From the NCBI GenBank assembly GCA_902558885.1, contig CACEFQ010000001.1:1-64000 (forward strand): DNA of 64,000 bases, written 5' to 3'. The stretch comes from an uncultured SAR116 cluster alpha proteobacterium (GTDB lineage Bacteria > Pseudomonadota > Alphaproteobacteria > Puniceispirillales > Marisalimonadaceae). This document shows positions 59,258-63,595 of this stretch, in pieces. Numbering within the stretch: the first letter of the stretch is position 1; each line of letters begins with the position of its first letter. The translations under genes and the position numbers were made by a program. The notes under the pieces were generated by a model. The model did no database searches. It saw nothing but the letters and a program-made list of their open reading frames with translations, and was not told the origin of the DNA.

Positions 59258-59332
59258 GGGACTATAGCTCAGCGGGAGAGCACTTCGTTGACATCGAAGG
59301 GGTCACTGGTTCAATCCCAGTTAGTCCCACCA
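59258..59332 (+). tRNA. tRNA-Val (anticodon GAC)
   Basis: GGGACTA pairs with TAGTCCC, then A and an encoded CCA (59330-59332). Anticodon stem CTTCG/CGAAG with loop TTGACAT gives anticodon GAC. T-arm is CTGG-TTCAATC-CCAG. The last 25 bases of this gene are repeated exactly at 60460-60484, which marks this gene as a probable integration target. Confidence 0.95.
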
Positions 59333-59333
59333 T
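59308..59333 (+). repeat. attL-like direct repeat inside tRNA-Val
   Basis: 26 bases (GGTTCAATCCCAGTTAGTCC, then CACCAT) covering the T-loop to CCA end of tRNA-Val plus one base. An identical copy occurs 1152 bases to the right. Identity ends abruptly on both sides. Confidence 0.8.
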
Positions 59334-59344
59334 TTATTTTAGTT

Positions 59345-60193
59345 TTATTTAGTTGCTGAAACATAATTTAGACAAGCCTTGTAAGTTATCTTACCATTTT
59401 TTTGTCTTTTCTTAGACATCGCTTCTATTTCTTTTTTTATACTTAAAAGTTTATAGTCTGATAAATCCTCTTCTGCTAGTAATCTAGCTCCCATGCCTAA
59501 GTTCAAAAGAAGCTCAGCATCTTTTTTAACAGTATCTTGTGTTGAAATTGAGGTATATATTTCTTCAACTTTAATATTTTTAAAACCAGAATTATTTAAA
59601 ATCTCTTCAATATATTCTTTGTCATTAAAGGCAAAAGGACCAGGATCTCTTGTTAATTTTGGATATTCTTTATTAATGTGTCGTAGAATTATATTTGTTG
59701 CAGCAGTATGGAATTCATTTTCCATCAAATTTGTCCAACATACAAAATTTAGAGAACCTCCAATTTTTATTGATTTGTTGATATTTTGAAAAGCGTGAAT
59801 AGGGTTTTTAAAAAACATAACTCCAAATCTTGATATAACTTTATTAAAATTATTTTTTTCAAAATCAAAGTTTTCAGCATCACAATTTTTAAAATCTAAA
59901 TTTTTTATTTTTGAATATTTACTTTTTGCTAAATCCAACAAAAGGTTAGAAATATCAGCTCCCAACACATAACCACTTTCTCCAACTAACTGAGATGCCT
60001 CAAAAGATGTTTGTCCACCTCCACATCCTATATCTAAAACTTTGTCACCCTCTTCGATATTAGTTTTTAAAAAAAGTGCTTTTGTTAAAATAGTTAGTCT
60101 TTCATTCATAGAATTATCATTGTCTACCCACTTATGACCATATTTTTTATTCCAATATTCAGATTGCTCATGATTAATGATAGTAGATGACAT
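59345..60193 (-). CDS. class I SAM-dependent methyltransferase
   Basis: 282 residues. VLDIGCGGGQTSFEAS is motif I, GADIS the acidic end of beta-2, NCDAENFDF motif II, and FGVMFFKNPIHAFQNI the motif III region. The fold resembles UbiE/ubiquinone-type and other Methyltransf_25 enzymes; substrate unknown. GFKNIKVEEIYTSIS follows the usual C-terminal strand pattern. It is the only full gene between the duplicated tRNA-Val ends. Its stop is 11 bases from the left repeat and it is transcribed toward the tRNA. Confidence 0.85.
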   Translation of the reverse strand: MSSTIINHEQSEYWNKKYGHKWVDNDNSMNERLTILTKALFLKTNIEEGDKVLDIGCGGGQTSFEASQLVGESGYVLGADISNLLLDLAKSKYSKIKNLDFKNCDAENFDFEKNNFNKVISRFGVMFFKNPIHAFQNINKSIKIGGSLNFVCWTNLMENEFHTAATNIILRHINKEYPKLTRDPGPFAFNDKEYIEEILNNSGFKNIKVEEIYTSISTQDTVKKDAELLLNLGMGARLLAEEDLSDYKLLSIKKEIEAMSKKRQKNGKITYKACLNYVSATK

Positions 60194-60321
60194 TATAAAT
60201 CTCTCTAAGTATGTATTTTAAAACATGATCATTAATTAAATATCAAAATGCAAACTAATTTTAGATTTAATAATTAATTAAGTAATTAGGAAAAGAGCAT
60301 AGGGTGTAACAGGTATGAAAT

Positions 60322-60410
60322 AGTCTGTTAAAATAAATTTTGATTTGCAGATTCATAATTAGTAAAATTTTTCAACAAAAGGATTGTTTTATGAGTCTGC
60401 AAAAGTCTGT
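60322..60410. repeat. cluster of AGTCTG-type repeats next to the right tRNA fragment
   Basis: AGTCTGT at 60322-60328, AATCTGC (minus strand) at 60347-60353, AGTCTGC at 60394-60400 and AGTCTGT at 60404-60410. The second and third are part of a 13-bp near-perfect inverted repeat (60344-60356 versus 60391-60403, 12 of 13 matching). Spacing and position 50-140 bases inside the right tRNA fragment resemble integrase arm-type sites. The surrounding 60194-60459 is otherwise AT-rich with no recognisable gene. Confidence 0.35.
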
Positions 60411-60489
60411 ACCTAAAAATAAAACCATATATTTCAATATCTTACAGAGTCAAACGATAGGTTCAATCCCAGTTAGTCCCACCATCTAA
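60391..60489 (+). CDS. 32-codon frame running into the tRNA-Val fragment (possible gene remnant)
   Basis: ATG with AAGGA eight bases upstream, reading MSLQKSVPKNKTIYF, then a short tail encoded by the orphan tRNA fragment (GSIPVSPTI) and stopping just beyond it. The good ribosome site contrasts with a tail that cannot be a natural protein end. This looks like the truncated start of a gene cut at the integration boundary, for example a lost element gene. It may also be noise. Confidence 0.3.
   Translation: MSLQKSVPKNKTIYFNILQSQTIGSIPVSPTI
60460..60485 (+). repeat. attR-like direct repeat: orphan 3' end of tRNA-Val
   Basis: Exact second copy of the 26 bases at 59308-59333. Upstream sequence (CAAACGATA) bears no similarity to the rest of tRNA-Val, so this is not a decayed second tRNA gene in full. 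Confidence 0.8.
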
Positions 60490-60593: not shown

Positions 60594-60917
60594 ATGAAAT
60601 TTATTATTTTAGGAAAATATACTAAACAAGGTACAGATGGGTGGTTAGACAACCCCGACGAGGACCGACGTGCAATGGTAAGTTCTTTGTCTGAAAAAAT
60701 TGGTGGTAAATTAATTGATTTGTCATACACAAGAGGTATTTATGATGTAGTTGCTACTGTAGAAGCTCCTAACTCTGATATCATGACATCTTTGAAGCTA
60801 TCAATGATGAAAACTGGTGCAATCGCAGAATTAACAATTCTTGAAGATATAGATTTAAACGCGATTGCCAGAGAGGGTGCAAAAATGATTGGTTTGTACA
60901 AAGCTCCCGGTAATTAG
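60594..60917 (+). CDS. GYD-domain protein
   Basis: 107 residues. MKFIILGKYTKQGTDGWLDNP, then GGKLIDLSYTRGIYDVVATVEAP matches the GYD family (PF08734), which forms small ferredoxin-like, probably oligomeric proteins of unknown function. The ribosome site AGGAGGT at 60584-60590 is nearly a perfect anti-SD match, uncommon in this AT-rich window, implying strong translation. Own promoter upstream. Cytosolic. First gene to the right of the duplicated tRNA end. Confidence 0.8.
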   Translation: MKFIILGKYTKQGTDGWLDNPDEDRRAMVSSLSEKIGGKLIDLSYTRGIYDVVATVEAPNSDIMTSLKLSMMKTGAIAELTILEDIDLNAIAREGAKMIGLYKAPGN

Positions 60918-61030
60918 TTACTTGCTTTTTTAATTTAGTTTTTTGATAACTCATTATTTTCAATCTAAGTTTTACAATTTATTAATTATTAATTAATGTA
61001 AATTTAAGTTTATTAGATTAAAATAATTAT

Positions 61031-62368
61031 ATGAAAAAAGCTACTGAAAATAGCATATTATCTTTCAAAGATGAACTTCATGCTAGGCCTTACATTAAGT
61101 TAGGTAATAACTTAAGAACCTTTCATTTTGCTTATTTAATTAAAGAGAATGACGAAAAGAAAAGTTGGAATTACCTAGACAAATTTTTGAGAAAAATTAA
61201 TTTTCAAAAATTACCTAATGAATCATCAAAATATTGGGTAGCAGAAGGAAAAGACTTAACTGTAAGATATGAGTGTCATACAGAATTCATTTCTTTAACC
61301 CTAATATATCCTAACAAAATTGAAAATAAAAATAAGCCTAAATTATTTGATGAAAATTTTTTAAATCTTTTACCAATTGAGTTTTTAGAAAATTTTCCAG
61401 GAGATCATTTTTTATCTACATGGATTGAGATGGTGCCATCAAATTTTAATTTCAGACCAATTGATATTGAAGATTATTTTTATCACGACAACTTTGCTGG
61501 CTCTAATGTGGCAGAAGACGGTGCTAATGTATTTATGTCATTTAAATCTGATAGAACAGACTTTCTTGGATCTGGTTTTAGAAGAGTTTTTATTCAAAAC
61601 AAAAATCTCAGAACAAGAAGAACGGGTAGACTTTTACAGAGAATTGTTGAGCTTGAAACTTATCAAGTACTTTCTTTACTAGGATTACCTCAGGTTAGGC
61701 AAGAAACATCACATTTAAGCAATCTAGAAAAACAAATTACTGAAATTACAAAATCTGTATCGAAAACAGCAAAAAAAAATTTAACCAAAAAATCGATTGA
61801 CTATCCTGATTATCAGCAAGATTTAAATGAATTATCTTATGTAGTAGCAAAAATTGAAGAAATAGATTCTTCAACAAACTATCGATTATCTGCAACTGCC
61901 GCTTATTACAAACTTGTTGAACAAAGAATACAAGATTTAAGAGAAGAGCGTTTAGAATCATTCCAAACAAGTTATGAATTTCTTAGTAGAAGGTTACAGC
62001 CTGCAATAAGAACTACTGAAGCCTTTTCAAGAAGATTAGAATCCTTGGCAACAAGAGCACAAAGGGCAGATAATTTAGTAAGAACTCAAATTGAAATGGG
62101 TGTGCAGATTCAAAATAAAAATTTGTTAGAATCAATGGAATTGAGAGCAAGAGCTCAATTACGTTTACAAGAAACTGTAGAATCTTTATCTATAGTTGCA
62201 ATTACTTACTATATAGTTGGTCTTTTAAGTACTTTGGTTGACCCAATAAATTTTGAAAAATTTTTTATAAGTAAAACAGTTTTTTTAGCGTTATGTGTCC
62301 CAATCATATTAATTCTTATTTGGTATATCGCAAAAATGGTCAGAAAAAAAATTAACAAGATAACATAA
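61031..62368 (+). CDS. DUF3422-family membrane protein
   Basis: 445 residues. The N-terminal FKDELHARPYIKLGNNLRTFHFAYL opening is diagnostic for DUF3422. A globular N-terminal domain is followed by a helical section rich in charged residues (~190-385, with RLQPAIRTTEAFSRRLESLA and TRAQRADNLVRTQIEMG). Two membrane helices lie at the C-terminus (~392-412 and 418-438), ending in a basic tail. The family is widespread in Proteobacteria with unknown function; the build suggests a membrane-anchored sensor or scaffold facing the cytosol. Confidence 0.85.
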   Translation: MKKATENSILSFKDELHARPYIKLGNNLRTFHFAYLIKENDEKKSWNYLDKFLRKINFQKLPNESSKYWVAEGKDLTVRYECHTEFISLTLIYPNKIENKNKPKLFDENFLNLLPIEFLENFPGDHFLSTWIEMVPSNFNFRPIDIEDYFYHDNFAGSNVAEDGANVFMSFKSDRTDFLGSGFRRVFIQNKNLRTRRTGRLLQRIVELETYQVLSLLGLPQVRQETSHLSNLEKQITEITKSVSKTAKKNLTKKSIDYPDYQQDLNELSYVVAKIEEIDSSTNYRLSATAAYYKLVEQRIQDLREERLESFQTSYEFLSRRLQPAIRTTEAFSRRLESLATRAQRADNLVRTQIEMGVQIQNKNLLESMELRARAQLRLQETVESLSIVAITYYIVGLLSTLVDPINFEKFFISKTVFLALCVPIILILIWYIAKMVRKKINKIT

Positions 62369-62409
62369 ATTTTTTAATTTATTTAAATACTTATTTGTTC
62401 AAAGGCAAC

Positions 62410-62862
62410 ATGGTGTACAAACTTAATACTAACAATAAAGATTATATTTCAATTAAATTTTGGTTCTTAGAGTGGGAGAAGTATGTGCAGAATAAAAATT
62501 ATTCATCAGCTATGAAATTATTTGAAAATGATGTTGTTAGTTTTGGTACTTGGATGGATATTGTTCAAGGTTTAGATCAGCTAAAATTAAATCAATGGAA
62601 AAATATTTGGCCTACTATAAGTAACTTTAAATTTTTAACAGATACGCTTTTTATTCAATTATCTCCAGATAAATTGTTTGCCAACTCTATTATAATTTGG
62701 GATTCTATTGGATATAAAAATGATGGTATTTCGTTTGAAAGAACAGGAAGAGCGACAGTAACACTAAAAAGAGATAACTTAAATTCTAATTGGAAGGGAA
62801 TACATACGCATTTTTCACTAAACAGAGGTGTTCCTCAACAATCATTTGGAAATTTTAAATAA
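62410..62862 (+). CDS. NTF2/SnoaL-like protein
   Basis: 150 residues from ATG 62410, which has AAAGG five bases upstream; the frame is open five codons earlier from TTG 62395. LEWEKYVQNKNYSSAMKLFENDVVSFGTWMDIVQGLDQLKLNQW is the helix-and-strand opening of NTF2-like folds, with later FERTGRATVTLKR and KGIHTHFSLNRG. The family groups isomerases, hydratases and binding proteins. No partner gene is adjacent. The tRNA-Pro gene follows 46 bases downstream. Confidence 0.65.
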   Translation: MVYKLNTNNKDYISIKFWFLEWEKYVQNKNYSSAMKLFENDVVSFGTWMDIVQGLDQLKLNQWKNIWPTISNFKFLTDTLFIQLSPDKLFANSIIIWDSIGYKNDGISFERTGRATVTLKRDNLNSNWKGIHTHFSLNRGVPQQSFGNFK

Positions 62863-62908
62863 AGTTGTTGTTTTTTATCTTTCAAAGATACTAAATAAAA
62901 AAATATTT

Positions 62909-62985
62909 CGGGCCATAGCGCAGCCTGGTAGCGCGTCCGTCTGGGGGGCGGGAGGTCACAGGTTCAAATCCTGTTGGCCCGACCA
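62909..62985 (+). tRNA. tRNA-Pro (anticodon GGG)
   Basis: CGGGCCA pairs with TGGCCCG, then A and an encoded CCA (62983-62985). The anticodon stem TCCGT/GCGGG closes with two wobble pairs around loop CTGGGGG, giving anticodon GGG. T-arm ACAGG-TTCAAAT-CCTGT. The gene is complete; no duplicated fragment of it was seen elsewhere. Confidence 0.93.
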
Positions 62986-63031
62986 AAAAAATAAATTAAT
63001 AAATAAAGTTAAAATAAGAATATAAATAACT

Positions 63032-63595
63032 ATGATAAAAACAATTTTTACAATTTTATTTTTTCTTTTATTAATTGTTGAAACAAATGCTAAAGAAAGT
63101 TTCATATCATTAGAAAAACTTAAAAATCATGATATAAATAAAGTTATTTTTTTAAGGCATGCCTTAGCTCCAGGTAATGGAGATCCTCCAAATTTTAATG
63201 TTAATGATTGTTATACTCAAAGAAATCTTGATAAGGCTGGAATAGTTCAAAGCAGAATGATTGGGCAATCTTTTAAAAATATAGGTATTAAATTTTCAAA
63301 AATTTACTCAAGTTTTTGGTGTAGGTGTAAAGACACAGCAATGAATATGGAAGTTGGTGAATTCAAAACACACTTGGGTTTAAATTCCTTTTATGAAAAA
63401 CATGCTGATAGAGAGACTACATTAAGAAAATTAAATAATTTAATTAAGGGTTTTAATAAATTAGGCGGACCATACTTGTTGGTTACTCACTACGTTAATA
63501 TTTTAGCTTTTACAGGTTTATCAACTTCAAGCGGAGGTATGGTTGCATATGATCTTAACACAAAAGTATCAACTCATATTAAATTAAATGACTAA
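63032..63595 (+). CDS. exported histidine-phosphatase (phosphoglycerate-mutase-like) protein
   Basis: 187 residues. A clear signal peptide (TIFTILFFLLLIVETNA, cut near residue 20) precedes KVIFLRHALAPGNGDPP, where R-H-A replaces R-H-G; the His is the phospho-acceptor. SSFWCRCKDTA is the second active-site stretch and LLVTHYVNILAFTG the second catalytic His. Exported members of this family act on periplasmic phosphomonoesters. The cysteines (CYTQRN, CRCKD) may form a disulfide. Single gene; overlaps the next convergent stop by four bases. Confidence 0.82.
   Translation: MIKTIFTILFFLLLIVETNAKESFISLEKLKNHDINKVIFLRHALAPGNGDPPNFNVNDCYTQRNLDKAGIVQSRMIGQSFKNIGIKFSKIYSSFWCRCKDTAMNMEVGEFKTHLGLNSFYEKHADRETTLRKLNNLIKGFNKLGGPYLLVTHYVNILAFTGLSTSSGGMVAYDLNTKVSTHIKLND

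Follow-up and report, generated by a model that had tools for sequence, protein, structure and literature searches.

An integrase-less one-gene cassette with a phage attachment arm behind tRNA-Val in a SAR116 genome, probably moved by a phage integrase

What could have placed a single gene between two copies of a tRNA end, when nothing between them encodes a recombinase? The question arises in a draft SAR116 genome (1.65 Mb, 36 contigs, 76% complete), of which the window, i.e., the whole 64-kb stretch analyzed here, is the first 64 kb of contig C1. A 26-bp core at the end of tRNA-Val(GAC) recurs exactly 1,152 bp downstream (97% identity over 29 bp), and ARAGORN finds a complete tRNA only at the left copy (Table 1). 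With up to three mismatches allowed, these are the only two core matches within the window, against an expectation of 0.00 (mean of 100 dinucleotide-preserving shuffles). The bounded segment measures ~1.15 kb, and its single substantial gene, on the minus strand, encodes a SAM methyltransferase (MT). A 98-aa plus-strand open reading frame lies inside the MT gene, and a further 266 bp of the segment hold no listed gene of at least 60 aa. The original prediction, made from the sequence, had claimed just such a duplication, with the complete tRNA on the left copy only, around a one-gene segment without a recombinase, and it stands on both counts. The MT stop codon lies 11 bp past the tRNA-side core, and there is therefore no P' arm on that side. 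Among the matches listed, tRNA-Val(GAC) is 100% identical over 76-78 bp in 20 genomes of the genus.

Table 1. Features at the tRNA-Val locus, in window coordinates
Feature	Position	Strand	Basis
tRNA-Val(GAC), integration target (attB)	59258..59332	+	ARAGORN
Left (tRNA-side) 26-bp core copy	59308..59333	+	Repeat comparison
Cargo: 282-aa class I SAM methyltransferase (MT)	59345..60193	-	ORF and domain searches
Box GCATAGGGTGTAACAGGT; switch point of arm types 1/2 between same-gene cassettes	60297..60314	+	Alignment
Phage-type P arm, type 2	60298..60459	+	Alignment to phage contig L170
Putative integrase arm site WAGTCTG, -139 from core	60321..60327	+	Motif picked by eye
Putative integrase arm site WAGTCTG, -57 from core	60403..60409	+	Motif picked by eye
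Right (distal) 26-bp core copy	60460..60485	+	Repeat comparison
GYD-domain gene, first of right flank; G036 has the same core junction	60594..60917	+	
tRNA-Pro(GGG), right-hand limit of the region that varies among relatives	62909..62985	+	ARAGORN

The key feature was absent from the original prediction: a phage P arm of ~160 bp lies directly before the distal repeat. It is identical to the arm of phage contig L170 at 151 of 162 aligned positions (93%), and the arm-site motifs of both lie equally far from the core. A pattern of the arm end plus core matched seven viral contigs (L137-L143), and a second pattern from the arm start matched the same seven, in none of which ARAGORN finds a tRNA; phage contigs with arm, core and P' and without the tRNA do exist. 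One of them, L140, encodes a 395-aa tyrosine integrase that starts ~450 bp past the core (PF00589, 4.6e-14; phrog_1, 2.1e-31), in the neighborhood of lysozyme-like, HTH and replication-initiation-like proteins, and this integrase, used as a query, yielded 16 viral loci. L170, retrieved with the window-type arm pattern, carries a second arm type and encodes a tyrosine integrase. A second arm plus core was absent from the eight viral contigs with a tRNA-Val-type attP (L137-L143 and L170); the two pieces in the arm search of L141 are both from one arm. By motifs chosen by eye from alignments, type 1 has GTCTWGT at about -139, -117, -65, -55, +159 and +170 from the core, and type 2 has WAGTCTG at about -139, -57, +158 and +168. 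The window has the type-2 motif at both P positions and at none of the P' positions; a further WAGTCTG on the tRNA side, at +120, is internal to MT and is regarded as a chance occurrence. Some arm motifs have been lost in other host units. In the phages, the box GCATAGGGTGTAACAGGT apparently spans the last small gene's stop codon and the beginning of the P arm. The attL/attR footprint of a tyrosine recombinase, seen at the outset around cargo without such an enzyme, is supported by these data, and the recombinase that fits is a temperate-phage integrase.

We infer that the phage arms are integrase binding sites mainly because of a natural exchange, in which an arm-type-specific integrase domain has been swapped between two tRNA specificities. 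Fifteen of the 16 phage integrases were aligned (L184, a fragment, was omitted; L173 and L174 are incomplete). Residues 1-70 are 74-98% identical within type 1, 76-97% within type 2 and 42-57% between types, a grouping that holds whichever tRNA is in attP. Residues 71-180 are 84-100% identical per tRNA target and 36-43% between Val and Lys, and residues 181-395 are 91-100% identical per target and 55-66% between Val and Lys. Across the 15 integrases, the N-terminal domain (1-70) tracks arm type and the remainder tracks the attP tRNA, with the arm labels of L177 and L178, which have no attP core on their piece, taken from the N terminus alone. One mismatch occurs among the 13 loci with readable attP: L180 has type-1 P' sites with a type-2 P arm and N-terminal domain. 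This stretch (L180:883-1250) is a recombinant or a chimeric contig. In P, L179 and L180 both carry the variant CGTCTGT.

Other cargo at the same site had been proposed as a thing to look for, and relatives indeed carry different cargo behind the same tRNA. Forty regions were compared, 27 of them oriented, giving 28 sequences with the window. An aminotransferase gene is present in 22 of the 28; in each of them it lies to the left either of tRNA-Val itself or of an additional copy of that tRNA, an island intervening. The gene content from tRNA-Val to tRNA-Pro varies. The tRNA 3' end recurs, detached from the tRNA body and always in one orientation, in the window, G031, G034, G001, G023, G016 (three) and G029, and alignment shows ~160-200 bp to the left of these copies that are common to all. 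Enclosed by two such copies, or by the tRNA and a copy, are MT in the window, G031 and G016; a TctA transporter, two ComA-like proteins and one protein without a Pfam match in G034, G001 and G016; and a winged-helix-domain methyltransferase with a cyclase-TPR protein in G023. Nor do all relatives share one arrangement, the outcome named as counting against an inserted element: there is other cargo, and the same MT sits in other positions and lineages. The segment from tRNA to distal site is fully assembled in six cases (the window, G031, G034, G001, G013 and G023), as are two inner units of G016, and a homolog of the phage integrase is absent from all eight. Among the named genomes scanned, the pattern matched three records, the SAR116 single-cell genomes AG-321-K23 and AG-321-A13 and the MAG BS30m-G7, and the distal site is laid out like the window's in two single-cell genomes. 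Distal cores and arm sites are degraded in several relatives, and many units may therefore be immobile.

The cargo itself matches assorted SAM methyltransferases in Pfam, NCBIfam and PDB, with none of the 25 NCBIfam matches listed reaching its cut-off. PADLOC matches MT residues 34-159 to mad2 (1.3e-18); a defence role was rejected, with the match read as a common methyltransferase domain and not as function. Searches of viral_contigs that reach close relatives only found none of MT, and likewise none of the cyclase-TPR and TctA proteins.

Has the cassette moved between lineages? At the amino acid level, the window MT is 94% identical to those of G031 and G016, against 60-78% for left and 56-84% for right flanking genes in the same comparison. 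Its dS is 0.12 (G031) and 0.15 (G016), with dN/dS of ~0.2, against a dS of 0.85-1.19 for five flanking genes (c3, c4, c0, c1 and c15). By these measures, the MT cassette has crossed lineages. Four genomes (G014, G004, G009 and G019) share 91-97% identity with the window in the three genes to the left of the tRNA, and no close MT relative occurs in what has been assembled of them (best E no stronger than 1e-11). No empty site of the kind sought by the original prediction, with a full tRNA-Val directly before the CTAAAAACTTAA junction and the GYD promoter, was found in the regions compared, so cassette replacement in G036 serves as substitute evidence. This genome is 97.8% identical in nucleotides to the window over 60736-63500 and has the same right junction, core followed by CTAAAAACTTAA and then GYD, preceded by a cyclase-TPR unit with a type-1 arm instead of the MT unit.

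Contig C9 of G016 reads arm-core, transporter unit, type-2 arm-core, MT, type-1 arm-core, methyltransferase c8; G031 reads tRNA, MT, type-1 arm-core, c8; and G034 reads tRNA, transporter unit, type-1 arm-core, c8. The G016 order would follow from that of G031 if new units enter beside the tRNA; for this, the G016 tRNA-Val, on contig C1, is presumed to adjoin C9. The same cargo occurs with either arm type and the change falls at GCATAGGGTGTAACAGGT, which suggests exchange with phages in that common box. Separately, the DUF3422 gene (window:61031-62368) has a dS of 1.0 against G009 and 0.09 against G036, and c0, c1 and c15 around it have a dS of 0.06-0.15 between the window and G009; the right flank is a mosaic as well.

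How far does the system extend? An arm model, R1, trained on nine sites from seven of the genomes that it matches, found 15 of 40 genus genomes at E <= 0.01, including G027, where the sole match is the tRNA itself. Order-wide, at E <= 0.001, it found 17 of 136 genomes, namely the same 15 and two marginal ones (3e-4 and 7e-4) among the 96 outside the genus. A P' probe derived from L140 matched 16 of 40 genus genomes. Fourteen P' loci were examined, one per genome and leaving out the weak matches of G015 and G024, and all 14 lie behind tRNA-Val or tRNA-Lys: three behind tRNA-Val or a copy of it (G016, G035 and G062) and 11 behind tRNA-Lys(TTT), the window's own genome included. A second model for tRNA-Lys arms, R2, matched 33 of 40 genomes and was left out of the counts because many weak matches cover only its second half; in the cases checked, these weak matches are the tRNA-Lys gene itself. 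We take the window cassette to belong to a tandem tRNA-linked system in one SAR116 genus, seen at tRNA-Val and tRNA-Lys. The phage integrase has no homolog in any of the 40 genus genomes, whose completeness of 52-100% limits this negative, and accordingly an intact prophage of the family was not encountered in them; as a positive control, the same query matched five of five phage records, down to 54% identity.

Some units may have kept both P' and P: G029, the first G016 unit and G035. In G016, a 272-bp stretch that starts at the tRNA-Val end matches L140 with 93% identity as far as ~210 bp before the integrase; the sequences then diverge, and the contig ends soon after. Its contig C9 starts with two open reading frames that match none of 17 viral loci compared, followed by 280 bp of phage-like sequence with P arm and core. 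Contig C159 of G029 begins with a 39-bp match to the phage P' region and continues with a 1,399-aa SAM-NACHT protein, a GIY-YIG protein, 322 aligned bp that are 92% identical to L170 (P arm and core), and tRNA-Pro. G035 shows a tRNA-Val copy and, behind it, a P' region with 93% identity over 228 bp, then an acyltransferase gene and an arm that has decayed. Contig ends or decay affect these three and the tRNA-Lys unit of the window's genome.

Several further elements at these tRNA genes deserve mention. Outside the window, contig C1 of the same genome has a second, decayed unit of the same kind (C1:109771-112748, i.e., L190:3772-6749), consisting of tRNA-Lys(TTT), a short P' remnant, cytochrome c, a GSDH-family dehydrogenase and a degraded P arm. 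The SAM-NACHT ATPase of G029 (L102:95-4291), the cargo of a phage-arm-bearing unit, has a C-terminal sigma70 region-4-like stretch and weak, partial PADLOC matches. A class III cyclase-TPR protein (~620-660 aa) is a recurrent first cargo at both tRNA-Lys and tRNA-Val sites (L212:502-2397, L216, L218, L220, L213, L127 and L185). Larger islands with their own integrase, of cluster c11, occur at tRNA-Val in L117, L125, L128, L133, L134, L136 and L099 (from G019, G013, G009, G035, G014, G016 and G030, respectively), and in the bounded ones the duplicated part of the tRNA (about positions 8 to 53/64) is longer than in the cassettes.

We consider it probable that the segment is an integrase-less cassette, composed of core, one MT gene, phage P arm and core, and that its mover is a phage tyrosine integrase. 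The enzyme that joins and releases it would most likely be that of temperate phages with the same tRNA core and arms. A phage with a matching integrase would integrate at tRNA-Val beside the cassette, giving the order tRNA-core-P'-phage-P-core-MT-P-core. The far P-core would then be a usable attR, and after integrase binding, excision between it and the tRNA-side attL would remove phage and cassette together, so that the cassette would be co-mobilized in cis and packaged. In a new host, the phage may leave via its own near P-core while the cassette stays. A lambda-type reaction needs a P' arm on the attL side. Without one, the window's tRNA-side junction would not be used as attL, and co-mobilization in cis is therefore likelier than movement alone; units possibly with P' and P (G029, the first G016 unit and G035) could also move in trans, as small circles. 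Neither an excised circle nor an empty site nor a phage-plus-cassette molecule was seen in the sequences compared.

Movement in trans was part of the original prediction, which had offered a minimal satellite or cargo cassette. Cargo without a recombinase is what we find, but the missing P' arm makes carriage beside an integrated phage the likelier course. As a satellite, the segment would be a 1.15-kb circle excised and integrated by the integrase of an infecting phage. The P arm and both cores are intact, as this would require, and G016, G029 and G035 have P' and P sequence around non-phage genes. Yet the window has neither P' arm nor P' sites on its tRNA side, contig ends break the G016 and G029 units, and the distal arm of G035 is degraded, so that we think a satellite unlikely. 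The missing P' arm would also suit a dead remnant, i.e., a tRNA-Val prophage reduced to its right end, where ordinary recombination brought a host gene into the gap; such a unit would now be passed on by inheritance or by homologous recombination in its flanks only. Degraded sites in many relatives, the failure to find an integrase homolog in host genomes (0/40) and the short phage sequence that persists beyond the arm in some units agree with such decay. It accounts poorly for the same cargo at different array positions with both arm types, for different cargo before an identical junction, for an MT unit with its left boundary at the core and its arm switch at a fixed box, and for the well-kept distal core and arm of the window; a remnant is, in our judgment, distinctly unlikely.

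The c11 integrase, which sits beside tRNA-Val copies in large islands, is another conceivable mover. The one member tested belongs to the Phage_integrase family (1.9e-23), and cluster members occur in seven oriented regions. The bounded c11 islands, however, duplicate other stretches of the tRNA (left copies 1-53 or 1-64, right copies from 8-11), and the sequence left of their right copies is of another kind, which leaves c11 very improbable. The genome is a draft in 36 contigs, which might invite the thought of an assembly error or a chance repeat; with no match expected in shuffles, the same junction in G036 and the same layout in single-cell genomes, we give this hardly any credence.

The cassette carried by a phage integrase remains our preferred reading, and the footprint, the phage-like arm, the correspondence of arm and integrase domain, and the exchange of MT can all be read from the sequences. 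The integrase-less cassette bearing a phage attachment arm is real, and phages would be its movers. Is this a phage-run cassette system outside integrons, in which SAR116 temperate phages move integrase-less arrays of host cassettes? We regard the case for this wider claim as evenly balanced. If it is true, metabolic and defence cassettes would be loaded, transported and released by phages at two tRNA genes, through integrases that combine an interchangeable N-terminal domain for reading the arm with a remainder specific to the tRNA. Such cassettes would account for additive islands that lack a local recombinase in streamlined plankton. If confirmed, this would be a route for the spread of metabolic and defence genes among open-ocean bacteria.

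Comparison with known systems draws on the accessible portions of the papers cited. In that literature, which largely leaves out subscription papers, we found no report of integrase-less cassettes with a phage attachment arm, nor of this SAR116 system. Tycheposons likewise bring cargo to tRNA genes of streamlined marine bacteria; they are described with a tyrosine recombinase (as cited in PMC10872708), whereas the window segment has none. PICI and PICMI are, like the cassette, small host-integrated elements, and the cassette too would depend on a phage; according to the PICMI paper, satellite excision requires satellite-encoded integrases (PMC10803314), and the window unit encodes no integrase, replication or packaging gene. 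It differs from a defective prophage in that the segment contains no phage genes, its phage likeness being confined to the arm. CALIN are gene-plus-site units without a local integrase (PMC11389934), as is the SAR116 unit, but here a phage P arm with a tRNA core, instead of attC, would account for the boundaries, and the proposed enzyme is a phage integrase, not IntI. A Riemerella study, whose title reports phage-integrase-guided integration of a genomic island (PMC9745183), is a possible precedent for the use of a phage integrase, with no integrase-less island described in the part accessible.

Two further parallels are additive islands and CIMEs. Additive islands of Methylophilaceae comprise cassettes of 330 bp to 42 kb with 1-63 CDS and tRNA-end repeats (PMC10872708), and tRNA-linked cassettes with such repeats are also known in “Ca. 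Actinomarinales” and Alteromonas (PMC7771536, PMC4119200). The SAR116 cassettes resemble them in varying among relatives behind a tRNA, with tRNA-end repeats; no mover is named there, in the portions accessible, whereas the SAR116 case has a phage arm and a matching integrase. CIMEs, and also the Dehalococcoides ssrA islands without an integration module, have att-type repeats, no recombinase and a tandem arrangement at one target (PMC5704250, PMC3146451), and accretion is known for ICEs and CIMEs (PMC5704250). The window segment is likewise bounded by attL/attR-type sites, albeit with no P' arm at its tRNA-side junction, and lacks integration and transfer genes of its own. In contrast to CIMEs, its arm matches temperate-phage contigs and not an ICE or IME, and the unit is a single gene of 1.15 kb, for which transfer in cis is proposed. 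As for accretion, G016 has tandem units on one contig, with no intact phage beside any unit. We propose that the cassette would work like a CIME with a phage in the place of the ICE, and in the SAR116 case it is the attachment arm that links tRNA-linked cassettes with one specific phage family.
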